This document shows, in pieces, positions 16,953 to 55,326 of a stretch of DNA of 64,000 bases. Under the pieces are notes generated by a model. The model saw only the letters and a list, made by a program, of their open reading frames with translations, was not told the DNA's origin and made no database searches. A program made the translations under genes and the position numbers. Within the stretch, counting starts at the first letter, position 1. Each line of letters begins with the position of its first letter. This stretch comes from Rouxiella sp. S1S-2 (GTDB lineage: Bacteria; Pseudomonadota; Gammaproteobacteria; Enterobacterales; Enterobacteriaceae), in NCBI RefSeq assembly GCF_009208105.1, contig NZ_WFKL01000001.1:1302001-1366000 (forward strand), in the 5' to 3' direction.

Positions 16953-16976
16953 GGATGTATAGACGTCTAAATGCTT
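16953..16976. promoter_or_regulatory. MetJ operator between mtnA and mtnK
   Basis: A perfect met box AGACGTCT (16961-16968) is flanked by the weaker boxes GGATGTAT and AAATGCTT in tandem register. Its position between the divergent genes predicts joint MetJ repression of mtnA and mtnK. Confidence 0.85.
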
Positions 16977-17030
16977 TTATGGCTATTCGCTCAGGGTGGC
17001 GCTGAATTCAGAAGATTACGAGAGGTTAGG

Positions 17031-18230
17031 ATGTCACGTTATTACACATTTAGCTCTGCAGACGCGGTAGAATATGCCCGCCAGTTTGGTGGCGTTGAAG
17101 ACCCGCAATCTCTGGTCACTGCCGACGAAATTGGCGACGGTAACCTGAATCTGGTGTTCAAAATTCGCGATACCAACGGCGTCAGCAGGGTGATTGTGAA
17201 GCAGGCGTTGCCGTATGTGCGCTGCGTGGGAGAGTCCTGGCCGCTCACTATTGACCGGGCTCGCATCGAGGCTGAAACCCTGATTGTTCATGGCCAATAT
17301 TGCCCACAGTACACGGTTAAAATTATTCATCACGATCCTGAGTTGGCGGTGATGGTTCAGGAAGACCTTTCGGATCATCTGATTTGGCGCGGTGAGCTGG
17401 TGCAGGGTAAACACTATCCTCAGGCCGCTAGCCAACTGGGTGAATATCTGGCGCAAACTCTGTTCCATACTTCAGATTTTTATCAGGATGCTCAGCATAA
17501 AAAATCGGAAGTTGGTCGCTTCCTTAACCCTGAGCTTTGTCTGATTACTGAGGATTTGTTCTTTACCGATCCTTATATTGAACACGAACGCAATCGCTAC
17601 GATGCTGCTTTGCAGCCGACGGTTGATGCACTGCGTGCCGATATCCCATTGCGGATAGCGGTGGCGGCCCTCAAGCAGCGTTTTCTCAGTAATGCCGAAG
17701 CGCTGCTTCACGGCGACGTTCACAGTGGATCAATCTTTGTGGCCGAAGGCAGCCTGAAAGTCATAGACGCAGAATTTGGTTTCTATGGCCCAATGGGTTT
17801 TGATCCCGGTTCTGCGATGGGTAACCTGCTGCTAAATTATTGCGGTTTGCCCGGTCTGGTTGCCACGCGTGAAGCGGCAGACGGCAGGGAACAGCGGCTG
17901 CAGGACCTGCGCGACCTGTGGTTAAGCTTCTCGGAACGCTTCCTACAGTTGGCGCGTGATGAAACGCAGGACGTGGCGTTTAAAGTACCGGGATATGCCG
18001 AATATTTCCTGAAACAGGTATGGCACGATGCGGTGGGTTACTGCGGCTCGGAGCTTATTCGTCGCACCATCGGTTTCTCTAATATTGCCGACCTTAAAAA
18101 TATCATCGACGACGACATGCGCCACGAATGCCAGCGTCACGCTGTCAGCCTTGGCCAGTGGTTGATCATTACTGCGCCACAGATTGACGACATTGACGCA
18201 CTGATTGCGCGAATTCGCCAGAACGGCTGA
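17031..18230 (+). CDS. mtnK: S-methyl-5-thioribose kinase
   Basis: A 399-residue kinase of the APH/choline kinase fold that phosphorylates methylthioribose at the anomeric carbon. The catalytic loop is [13 protein letters not shown] and the metal-binding DFG equivalent is [11 protein letters not shown] start it at MSRYYTF (17031) behind GAGAGGTTAGG; an in-frame ATG at 16971 would extend it through the MetJ operator, which argues against it. It is the entry point of the salvage pathway encoded from 11.7 kb to here. Confidence 0.93.
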
Positions 18231-18427: not shown

Positions 18428-18898
18428 ATGATGAATAACGACGTCTTGCGCAGCGTACGCTACATGCTCGACTTGAGCGAAGGCAGGCTGATTGAGATTT
18501 TGGCATCCACCGGAATTACCATTAGCCCGCCGGTGATGTCGCGTTATCTGAAAAAAGAAGACGAAGCGGACTACATGGTTTGCCCTGATGAAGTCATGGC
18601 AAACTTCCTTAATGGTCTGATTTTCTTCAAACGCGGTAGGGACGATCGTTTCCCAGCACCAGAAGTTGAAAAGCGCGTCACCAATAACGTGATGTTAAAA
18701 AAACTGCGCGTGGCTTTTGAGCTGAAAACTGAAGATTTGCAGGGCATTCTGGCGGCGGCTGATTTTAAGGTTTCTGAAGGCGAGCTGAGTGCTTTCTTCC
18801 GTAAAGAAGGCCACAAGAACTACCGTCCGTGCGGCGATCAGGTTCTGCGCTACTTCCTGAAGGGGCTAACCATGCGCGTACGCCCGAAAAAAGGCTGA
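18428..18898 (+). CDS. yehS: DUF1456 family protein YehS
   Basis: A 156-residue protein made of two DUF1456 repeats (about residues 1-75 and 82-156), each with a SVRYMLDL/KKLRVAFELK helix and an RKE/KKED-type loop. It closely follows E. coli YehS (SVRYIL, DEVMANFLNGLIFFKRG, PCGDQVLRYFLKGL). Its molecular function is unknown. The start is one of two adjacent ATGs (18428 or 18431). In E. coli yehS is elsewhere on the chromosome, so its place between mtnK and fadE is a lineage trait. Confidence 0.88.
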   Translation: MMNNDVLRSVRYMLDLSEGRLIEILASTGITISPPVMSRYLKKEDEADYMVCPDEVMANFLNGLIFFKRGRDDRFPAPEVEKRVTNNVMLKKLRVAFELKTEDLQGILAAADFKVSEGELSAFFRKEGHKNYRPCGDQVLRYFLKGLTMRVRPKKG

Positions 18899-18941
18899 TT
18901 ATTCACTGAATGTTTTGAGCATATCACCTTGTTACGCCCAC

Positions 18942-18969
18942 AAAAAAACCGCCTGATGGCGGTTTTTTT
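18942..18969. terminator. Bidirectional Rho-independent terminator
   Basis: CCGCC-TGAT-GGCGG is flanked by seven A on the left and seven T on the right, so it works in both directions. Rightward it ends yehS; leftward it would end the predicted antisense RNA starting near 19043. Confidence 0.9.
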
Positions 18970-19043
18970 GTGCTGGTCCAGTAAGCGGCCTTTCCAGCGG
19001 GATGATACTTAGCGATTACGCTGTATCGCAAGCACGTTCCAGT
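18942..19043 (-). ncRNA. Predicted antisense RNA of a type I toxin-antitoxin-like locus
   Basis: A minus-strand -35 TTGACA (19078-19073), a 17-base spacer and a weak -10 CAGACT (19055-19050) would start RNA at about 19043. The first 16 nt would be ACTGGAACGTGCTTGC, the exact complement of 19180-19195 in the leader of the small peptide gene. A small stem (GCGAT/ATCGC) follows, and the RNA would stop at the U-rich terminator at 18942, giving about 100 nt. The layout resembles OrzO/ZorO, IstR/TisB and AgrB/DinQ. It is predicted from sequence; no similarity to a named RNA is claimed. Confidence 0.55.
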
Positions 19044-19195
19044 AAAGGCAGTCTGTTCTTAATAATATCGACTGTCAAGCGAACCTTAAGTCAAATGGGT
19101 GTAGGATGCCTGCGGGCCTTTTCGCCGCCTTAAGCAAGTGGGCATCGGATTTTGAAAAGGATTTCTAACGGCCGTAAATGCAAGCACGTTCCAGT
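19028..19195. repeat. 16-bp direct repeat pair GCAAGCACGTTCCAGT
   Basis: The same 16-mer occurs at 19028-19043 and 19180-19195, 152 bp apart, with no extended similarity either side. In the second copy it forms most of a hairpin (CAAGCAC at 19181-19187 with GTGCTTG at 19194-19200, loop GTTCCA). The identity is what gives trans base pairing between the predicted antisense RNA and the peptide mRNA. Confidence 0.85.
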
Positions 19196-19258
19196 GCTTG
19201 TTTCACGGTGGTATCTCCGGTGGTATTCCCGTGAAGCGGTCTGAGCAAGGACCGCACA

Positions 19259-19378
19259 ATGAAACGATACCTCGGTATTGTTCTTATTGTATTGGCTGTC
19301 GTGTTGAGTGCCGGGAAGGGGAGTTGGAATATTTCCAATAACTCTCTCAAAGTGATCATCACTACCACCAACAAGTAA
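19259..19378 (+). CDS. Small hydrophobic peptide, candidate type I toxin
   Basis: A 39-residue ORF. It begins MKRYLGIVLIVLAVVLSAG, a basic start and one short membrane span (about residues 4-18), and ends in a polar tail SWNISNNSLKVIITTTNK. The Shine-Dalgarno AAGGA (19247-19251) is partly buried in a hairpin, GCGGTC (19236-19241) with GACCGC (19250-19255); a second stem TCACGG/CCGTGA (19203-19208/19229-19234) and a 5' hairpin at 19181-19200 precede it. A strong terminator follows 6 bases after the stop. These are the marks of a type I toxin mRNA. I do not recognise the peptide as Hok, Ldr, TisB, ZorO or DinQ. A small exported or membrane peptide with another role is possible. Confidence 0.6.
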   Translation: MKRYLGIVLIVLAVVLSAGKGSWNISNNSLKVIITTTNK

Positions 19379-19383
19379 GCTAA

Positions 19384-19413
19384 ATAGCCACCCAATTGGG
19401 TGGCTATTTTTTT
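19384..19413. terminator. Strong terminator of the small peptide gene
   Basis: ATAGCCACCC-AATT-GGGTGGCTAT is a perfect 10-bp stem followed by six T. The T tract reaches into the fadE stop codon (19412-19414). The stem may also help end the opposing fadE transcript. Confidence 0.92.
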
Positions 19414-21859
19414 AGGCCGCTTCAGTATGTCGAGTGGCGGCTTTTTCGGTTGCTGGTTTTTGCTGCGCGAGTTGGTCAGGTTCAAATTCGTCAACGTTGA
19501 TTGAACGCAGGCGACTCTCTTCGGCTCTGGCCAGAATGCGGGCATCGTCGGCGCTTAAGTGTCCAGCGTCCATGCCCATCTGGGCCAGCTTGTCCAGGCG
19601 GGTAAACGACAGTTTTTTACCCATCGCCTCACACAGTCTTTTGTGCACCGGCTCGGCGGCAATAATGTCGGCCAATGCCTCCTCAAGTTGACCTACCGGA
19701 TTATGCTCGCTTGGCGTCAGATACTGACCGCGCGCAATGCGGCTTCGTGTGGCAGATGGCACCTGAAGAATGCGAGCCAATTGATGGTCGAGCTGGTCGG
19801 AAGGGGCGCGATGCACGCGGCCAATCGGGAAAATCACCATGGTCAACAGCCCAGCAATAAAGCCGTTAGGGAAGTTGCGAAGAAGGTCGGTAATCGCCGT
19901 TTCAGCCTGATTCAGACAGTCCTGCACGCCCCAATGTACCAGCGGCAGATCAGCCTCATTACGACCTTCCTCGTCATAGCGTTTCAGCGTTGCGGTGGCA
20001 AGATAAAGCTGGCTGAGAATATCACCCAATCGTGCCGAAATTCGCTCACGGCGTTTAAGGCTGCCACCCAGCACGCCCATAGACACGTCAGACAGCAGTG
20101 CCAGGTTGGCACTCAGGCGGTTGATATGCTGATAGTAGCGGCGCGTTACGTCATTCACCGGCGCACGGCTGGTGCGTCCGTGCGTCAGGCCGAGCCACAG
20201 ACTGCGCACTTTATTGGTGCCAACGTGGCCGAGGTGACCAAACAGCGCACGGTCAAAGGCGTGCAAGTCTTTCGCCTCCGCAGCGGCCATTTCTTTCAAT
20301 ACATAAGGGTGACAGCGAATCGCCCCCTGACCGAAGATAATCATGCTGCGGGTCAAAATATTTGCCCCCTCAACGGTAATCGCGATCGGTGCACCCTGAT
20401 AGGAACGGGCAACAAAGTTGCTTTTCCCCAGCATAATGCCTTTACCGCCGGTGATATCCATCGCATCCATGACGGCGCGCTGGCCGCGATGGGTACAGTG
20501 ATATTTCACGATAGCCGACAGCACCGCCGGTTTTTCACCGAGCATAATTCCGTTAGTAATAAGCGTAGCGGCCGCGTCCATCACATAGGCGTTACCCGCA
20601 ATGCGCGCCAGCGGCTCTTCAATCCCTTCCATTTTACCGATCGGCAGTTTGAACTGACGGCGAATATAGGCATAAGCACCGGTCGCAACCGCCAGCGATT
20701 TCAGGCTGCCAGTGGCGTTAGAAGGCAGGGTAATACCGCGGCCCACCGACAAACATTCAACCAGCATGCGCCAACCTTGACCGGCCATTTTGGGTCCGCC
20801 AATGATGTAGTCGATAGGCACGAAAATATCGTTGCCGCGCGTGGGTCCGTTCTGGAACGGAATGTTGAGCGGGAAATGGCGATGGCCAATTTCAACACCC
20901 TGAGTGTCGGTCGGGATCAGTGCACAGGTAATGCCGAGCTCTTCTACATCGCCCAGCAGATGGTCTGGATCTTTCAACTTGAAGGCCAAACCCAGCACCG
21001 TAGCGATAGGAGCGAGAGTAATGTAGCGTTTATTCCAGGTCAGCTTCATGCCCAGAACCTGTTTACCCTGCCAGTCACCCATGCACACCACGCCAACGTC
21101 GGGAATGGCACCGGCATCTGAACCCGCCTCCGGGCTAGTGAGTGCAAAGCAAGGGATCTCAAGTCCTTTGGCCAGGCGCGGCAAGTAGTGATCTTTCTGC
21201 TCGTCGGTGCCGTAGTGCTGTAGCAGTTCGCCCGGGCCGAGTGAGTTTGGCACGCCGACAGTGATGGCTAAAATACCTGAGACACCGGCCAGTTTTTGCA
21301 GCACTCGCGCCTGAGCATAGGCCGAGAATTCGAGGCCGCCGTACTCTTTTTTGATAATCATCGCAAAGAAACGGTGCTCTTTCAGGTAAGCCCACAGCTC
21401 CGGCGGCAGGTCGGCCAGTTCATGAGTTATCTGGAAGTCATCGGCCATGCGGCAGGCTTCTTCAACCGGACCGTCGATAAAGCGCTGCTCTTCTTCGGTC
21501 AGCGTTTGCTGAGGATAATCTTGCAGCTTTTTCCAGTCCGGGGTACCGCTGAACAAATCGCCTTCCCACCAGGTGGTACCGGCTTCAATCGCCTCTTTTT
21601 CAGTGCGCGACATGCTGGGCATCACTTTGCGGAAGGTGCGCAGTGCCGGGCCGGAAAACAGCGAGCGGCGCAGAGGAAGGAGATTGAGCGGCAGCAAAAT
21701 GATGGCCATAGGCAGCAGCACCCACGGCGTCCACAGGCCAATTACGGCCATTGCCGCGGTATAAACCAGCAAAACAACGCTGCTCGGCAGCAGGCTGACG
21801 CGGTGATAAAACAGCACACCAATAAGAACCAGTAGGATAACAACGCTAAGAACTATCAT
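19412..21859 (-). CDS. fadE: Acyl-CoA dehydrogenase FadE
   Basis: An 815-residue acyl-CoA dehydrogenase, the size of E. coli FadE (about 814), catalysing the first step of fatty acid beta-oxidation. Two N-terminal hydrophobic segments (about residues 1-23 and 28-55) suggest membrane association. The acyl-CoA dehydrogenase core follows with [14 protein letters not shown] and later [10 protein letters not shown] motifs, then the long FadE-specific C-terminal extension. It starts at ATG 21859 behind CAGGAG. A FadR-like operator lies 20 bases upstream. Confidence 0.96.
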
Positions 21860-55188: not shown

Positions 55189-55326
55189 CGTAAAGTAACT
55201 TTCGTCAGATAAATCTTAAATGTTAATATGCTTTTAGTCCCCCCTTATACAGAGCTAACGCCGTCTCAAGCGAGTGCCGGAGATAAGCGCCGGGAGGGGG
55301 AGTCCCTGTCACTATCCGAATCAGCG

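Follow-up and report, generated by a model that had tools for sequence, protein, structure and literature searches.

A timPR type I toxin-antitoxin locus in Rouxiella, with a probable second, covarying contact between the TimR antitoxin and timP mRNA

The 64,000 nucleotides of Rouxiella sp. S1S-2 DNA analysed here (the window) contain, at 18942-19413, a small toxin gene and a predicted divergent antitoxin RNA, with mtnK (16971-18230) and fadE (19412-21859, minus strand) among their neighbours. The plus strand of 19112-19411 matches the Rfam family RF00126 (ryfA) in a covariance search with 205.4 bits against a cut-off of 80, over the full length of the model (1-296 of 296), and this stretch is taken as the timP mRNA. 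A probable extended -10 element of its promoter, TGTAGGAT, lies at 19100-19107 (+), where relatives read TGTACAAT or TATGAT. The Rfam match and this element together put the most likely start of the mRNA close to 19112 and its length at about 300 nt, which corrects an original prediction of about 230 nt.

The leader of timP mRNA can be folded into four stem-loops on the plus strand, SL1 (19117-19160), SL2 (19180-19201), SL3 (19202-19235) and SL4 (19236-19255), so that three stems, and not two as first described, stand upstream of the hairpin that buries part of the Shine-Dalgarno sequence. This hairpin is SL4; the GGA of the Shine-Dalgarno AAGGA falls within its stem and the AA within its loop. 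SL2 contains the known TimR target at 19180-19195. A predicted pseudoknot of 7 bp, including one G-U pair, joins CAUCGGA (19143-19149, +) to UCCGGUG (19216-19222, +) within SL3. The open reading frame at 19259-19378 (+) starts with ATG in frame after SL4 and encodes 39 amino acids, within the 38-40 codons sought for timP, and an intrinsic terminator follows at 19382-19413 (+); both are placed as originally claimed. The N-terminal part of the peptide is hydrophobic, and a Sec signal sequence, inner-membrane location and toxicity on overexpression would be expected of it from its family.

The ryfA RNA was renamed timP once its product was demonstrated in Salmonella to be a toxic inner-membrane protein, repressed by the divergent RNA TimR, and a complementary upstream RNA was described in every species analysed there (PMC7667032). 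Later work established how the leader folds, that SL1 and SL3 form a pseudoknot and what TimR does to it (PMC11228461). The elements of this published anatomy recur at the Rouxiella locus, namely a seed complementary to SL2, the SL1-SL3 pseudoknot, a Shine-Dalgarno sequence partly held in SL4 and a divergent TimR with its terminator, and therefore we read it as a timPR locus in a new genus. On this anatomy the system is a known one and the genus is new for it; that the locus is a timPR type I toxin-antitoxin system, published mechanism included, we hold to be very probable.

The peptide had been assigned to an unrecognised toxin family, and here the original prediction was wrong: the peptide is TimP, as indicated by the RF00126 match over cut-off, a weak match to NCBIfam NF040796 (TimP) and the published family. 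NF040796 scores it at 13.6 bits where 45 are needed, a library threshold and not a biological feature; locus L004, which reaches 227 bits in Rfam, likewise stays under it with 42.9. It is scarcely credible that the locus represents a new type I family merely resembling zorO/orzO, tisB/istR or dinQ/agrB. The layout is indeed similar and the NCBIfam threshold is missed, but the full-length ryfA match contradicts such a reading, the four stem-loops, pseudoknot and TimR site are those of timPR, and the AgrB covariance model gives only 22.9 bits in the window against a cut-off of 40. No RNA named for zorO/orzO or tisB/istR was found at Rfam gathering scores in the window or up to E = 1 in 18850-19500, with the limit that Rfam may not model each of them. 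A rydB RNA (RF00118) is found elsewhere in the window, at 55240-55307 (+), scoring 51.4 bits where the cut-off is 50. The type I reading itself and the divergent layout with a short trans duplex are borne out by ryfA/timP membership above the Rfam cut-off, and by relatives that retain the complementarity while its letters change.

The predicted TimR RNA occupies the minus strand at 18942-19043 (about 102 nt). It would begin with a 16-nt seed (19028-19043) that is the exact complement of SL2, continue through a second hairpin (18972-18998) and end at an intrinsic terminator (18942-18969), the U-rich terminator already noted. The minus-strand promoter is as described, with TTGACA at 19078-19073, a 17-nt spacer and CAGACT at 19055-19050. 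A TTGACA box likewise lies upstream of the antitoxin in four relatives (L005, L007, L012 and L013). The reservation that the -10 is weak holds for the window; since relatives read CAAACT, CAAAAT or TACAAAAT there, the position of the promoter is nonetheless supported.

The seed and its target are two copies of one 16-mer, GCAAGCACGTTCCAGT, at 19028-19043 and 19180-19195, with no third copy on either strand of the window. The longest word shared by the two regions was at most 12 letters in 2000 dinucleotide shuffles of both, and 157 pairs of segments with the same spacing, taken from the rest of the window, shared no word longer than 11; the complementarity pointed out in the original prediction thus exceeds chance by far. 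Its proposed check, co-conservation of the leader repeat with the peptide, was run on relatives with a positive outcome. In 42 of 56 loci (near-copies included) the leader and the TimR region have an exact word of at least 9 letters in common; three of the other 14 are collapsed, one is truncated where its contig stops, and in ten the common word is shorter. Words of this length also arose in 156 of 2000 shuffles of the window regions, and single short repeats therefore prove little. Wherever the leader copy is present it begins 72 to 85 nt 5′ of the start codon, and the letters of the repeat vary between species and between copies.

In the genus, four of six genomes contained a match; in the host family, 68 of 392 sampled genomes had a match at E 0.001 and 35 one above cut-off; the weak matches include chance ones, for example in the genomes behind L010 and L011. 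The closest named relative of the peptide is TimP of Rouxiella silvae (100% identical), followed by that of Serratia sp. M24T3 (77%). From 86 listed loci, 12 for which the script found no terminator were dropped and then three collapsed ones (L019, L053 and L054), and the 71 intact loci were thinned to 39 non-redundant representatives, on which the pairing counts out of 39 are based. L010 and L011, weak Rfam matches inside the reading frame of another protein, were excluded, as were L071 and second copies of one place. L071 (1501-1658) is a partial timPR match covering 24% of the query, on the E. coli plasmid p21KM1392_3 with ParA; it carries no annotated gene, and its search gave 18 plasmid places in total. 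The peptide itself had no match at E 0.001 among 72,556 plasmid records.

A second region of complementarity appears in these loci. In the window, UAAGC in the apical loop of SL1 (19131-19135, +) can pair with GCUUA in the loop of the second hairpin of TimR (18982-18986, -). Across the family the two loop words change in step, as AAGC/GCUU, UAGC/GCUA, UCGC/GCGA and UGGC/GCCA (timP/TimR), and longer matched words also occur (UUAGCG/CGCUAA, UUAGCAG/CUGCUAA, GUAGCAG/CUGCUAC and GUAGCAA/UUGCUAC). The four core positions are fully paired, with compensatory changes, in 37 of 39 representatives. The GC of the core is paired in all 39. The position one base 5′ of the timP GC is Watson-Crick paired in 37 (A-U 23, C-G 12, G-C 2; shuffle mean 18.5), the position two bases 5′ in 39 (U-A 31, A-U 8; shuffle mean 26.3) and the position three bases 5′ in 26 (shuffle mean 14.5). 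None of 5000 row shuffles, which ignore relatedness among loci, was as high at any of these three variable positions. On the 3′ side of the GC, the next two positions are paired in 16 and 9 of 39, no more than in shuffles. The uninterrupted run measures 4 to 7 bp in 37 loci, with no more than 4 bp in the class that includes E. coli, and 2 bp in L025 and L031, which break the contact; non-cognate pairs of different timP class gave runs of at most 3 bp in 884 of 1080 cases. In the predicted folds the TimR core is mostly unpaired in 35 of 39 loci, and 25 of 39 leaders leave over half of the SL1 loop unpaired.

The same loop pair emerges when the whole leader is compared with the TimR tail. In a scan of 6146 column pairs it ranks first by the number of fully paired loci (37 of 39; the next-best pair reaches 24 of 39), by covariation and by their product. 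Among 361 local 4-bp diagonals its register leads by the fraction paired, and also by covariation in overlapping windows. The 6146-pair scan used ungapped words around each column, a design chosen after the failure of a gapped full-leader scan had been explained: the loop pair went unranked there because the alignment gaps fall inside the loop. A first column scan had placed the loop pair first with close rivals (z 5.8 against 5.7 and 5.6). A test of the longest run in wide stretches, in which 83 of 20,000 permutations were as high, was noisy because of chance GC runs and was replaced by the column-anchored tests.

A further 30 sources (10 of the 12 loci in which the script had found no terminator and 20 additional ones) yielded 17 scorable loci, and all 17 contain a run of 4 to 7 bp; they were read by eye with the target known, and several are near-copies, several diverged. 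L042, L098, L099 and L107 were left unscored as they lack a complete leader or TimR, as were the collapsed L085, those with no leader match (L109-L113, L115 and L116) and L114, which runs off its contig; L097 represents two copies counted once.

Could the loop match have arisen through common ancestry, or because each loop is constrained separately, in an otherwise published timPR system with no pairing between them? Linked genes share ancestry, so that row shuffles exaggerate; the invariant GC core contributes nothing; and the published probing, in the part consulted, contains no SL1 footprint (PMC11228461). The TimR-induced changes given there lie at SL2, 57-58, 142-144 and near 165, with a further change at G103-G111 in SL3 in a mutant; the SL1 loop is not among the places named (PMC11228461). 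Shared descent, however, yields correlation and not complementarity, and one position shows A-U, C-G and G-C pairs, another U-A and A-U. In a tree computed from sequence that holds neither contact site, the pair type changes seven times, one change leading to a non-pairing exception; 13 of 36 inner branches are poorly supported, and the well-supported branches force fewer changes. Moreover, the loop pair has no close competitor among the leader column pairs. We therefore consider such an origin without pairing improbable, and judge it likely that the loop of the second TimR hairpin pairs with the apical loop of SL1. The covariation is observed; a contact in solution, and an effect of it, is what we infer.

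Two other pairings were considered. One, in which TimR GGAAAGGCCGC would form a long duplex with the 5′ end of timP (GCGGGCCUUUUC in the window), was rejected: the two sides do not vary in step, and the best related column pair is fully paired in 18 of 39 loci, far below the loop pair. Pairing of the 3′ arm of SL1 with the 3′ strand of SL2 is G-U-rich, gives the best run in only some members of group i, and involves an SL2 already constrained by its own stem.

What a contact with SL1 might do can be considered in the light of the bench work in Salmonella. There, the Shine-Dalgarno sequence is locked in SL4 and the pseudoknot is required for translation (PMC7667032, PMC11228461), and TimR binds SL2, favours the pseudoknotted form and destabilises the pseudoknot (PMC11228461); according to a commentary, TimR binding does not overlap the pseudoknot region (PMC11295053). 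What makes TimR favour the pseudoknotted form, and by what means its binding weakens that fold, is posed as a question in PMC11228461. All 39 representatives contain a pseudoknot run of 6 to 8 pairs, taken as the best run within a stretch with G-U allowed, a count looser than the contact test because the first-found run was shifted (GGCxxxG) in 12 of 39.

From this anatomy, timP mRNA of Rouxiella would fold with SL4 holding the Shine-Dalgarno sequence, and its translation would need the SL1-SL3 pseudoknot. The 5′ end of TimR, made from the divergent transcript, would pair with SL2, break the pseudoknot and block TimP synthesis. If the loop of the second TimR hairpin also paired with the SL1 apical loop, TimR would clamp SL1 and SL2 together, which would explain how an RNA directed to SL2 can detect and open a pseudoknot formed by SL1 and SL3. 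The proposed contact (19131-19135) and the pseudoknot strand (19143-19149) are only 7 nt apart, so that a doubly held TimR could sense the pseudoknotted fold, and TimR held on SL1 and SL2 could pull SL1 off SL3. We find it fairly likely that TimR has these two grips, a seed on SL2 and a kiss with the SL1 loop with family-wide compensatory change, and that they bear on how the pseudoknot is recognised and broken; the role of the SL1 contact in breaking it is held somewhat less firmly than the contact itself.

The family extends over many genera in a subfamily with MEMR...GGWNIS-type peptides (L009, L034, L037, L038, L040, L041, L043, L044 and L046-L049, with L105, L106 and L108 assigned by leader). 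Six of six such loci tested fall under the Rfam cut-off (L009, L037, L041, L043, L046 and L049), and three of three (L009, L043 and L046) have no NCBIfam TimP match. Scored members have both the pseudoknot and the second contact; in L044 and L047 the exact leader repeat falls short of 9 nt. An alternative, put forward in work on Shigella and on pathogenic E. coli, is that RyfA acts chiefly as a regulatory RNA on other genes and the peptide is secondary. PMC5333039 reports that RyfA1 affects ompC and, according to a section heading, that there was no small protein under the conditions used. Yet a 39-40-codon reading frame after SL4 is retained across subfamilies of low identity, W23 is found in 14 of 14 aligned peptides (and lost in L039), and the peptide is toxic in Salmonella (PMC7667032), which makes a merely secondary peptide very unlikely.

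Individual copies have fared differently. The Rouxiella genome itself carries a second, diverged timPR copy beside lpdA (L002 1501-1798; C1:4712369-4712666), which has a 13-nt repeat and a pair of SL1 and TimR loops (UUAGCG/CGCUAA) of its own; its TimP frame is broken, 16 codons from ATG, and congeners L014, L015, L017 and L018 have intact frames of 40 aa. Two genomes contain tandem copies (L006 with L013, and L018 with L015) in which the adjacent TimR seed is mismatched to its own timP: L006 has 7 nt in common with its own TimR and a leader word matched by the TimR of L013, and L018 has no matching seed adjoining. L013 reads ATA where ATG is expected. At the collapsed loci L019, L053, L054 and L085, the TimR terminator, tail and seed abut SL2 and the reading frame of timP; SL1 and the stretch carrying the two promoters are absent, as though a deletion had occurred between the direct repeats on which antitoxin pairing depends.

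No second TimR contact is named in the consulted portions of PMC7667032, PMC11228461, PMC13188913, PMC5333039 and PMC8167048, and for kissing between TimR and timP our literature search returned only PMC8167048, there about Helicobacter pylori; supplements and subscription papers lay outside both searches. The system is therefore a known one with one apparently undescribed feature, the contact with the SL1 loop. A covarying loop contact matters for the question on TimR preference and pseudoknot breaking raised in PMC11228461: if true, a second grip on SL1 would turn it into a two-sided mutation test, and a bipartite antisense RNA clamping two stem-loops would serve well as a model for further type I toxin mRNAs that are not processed. 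Libraries moreover understate the breadth of the family, as the MEMR-type subfamily is missed by the Rfam cut-off and by the NCBIfam TimP model where tested.

Several known systems resemble this locus. Like timPR, the zorO-orzO, tisB-istR and dinQ-agrB pairs combine a toxin mRNA with a divergent short antisense RNA of limited complementarity, but their mRNAs need processing and timP mRNA does not (PMC7667032). In aapA1-IsoA1 of H. pylori, a type I antitoxin meets its toxin mRNA via two kissing-loop contacts (PMC8167048). That system differs from timPR in its unrelated toxin and its processed mRNA. The antisense RNA of aapA1 also overlaps its own target gene, whereas TimR is divergent. RyfA1-RyfB1 of Shigella dysenteriae belongs to the same family as timPR; it was interpreted as a regulatory RNA pair, in which RyfB1 affects RyfA1 and not RyfA2 (PMC5333039). 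Closest are timP-TimR of Salmonella (formerly ryfA-STnc2070) and timP of E. coli, which share with the Rouxiella locus the RNA family, the four stem-loops, the Shine-Dalgarno sequence in SL4, the pseudoknot, a divergent TimR with a seed for SL2 and a small hydrophobic toxin. They differ from it in genome place (sseA-sseB, against fadE in Rouxiella), in a diverged peptide, in the letters of the seed and in the putative second contact, which would comprise 5 bp in Rouxiella (UAAGC/GCUUA) and 4 bp in the E. coli loci L067-L070 (UCGC/GCGA).
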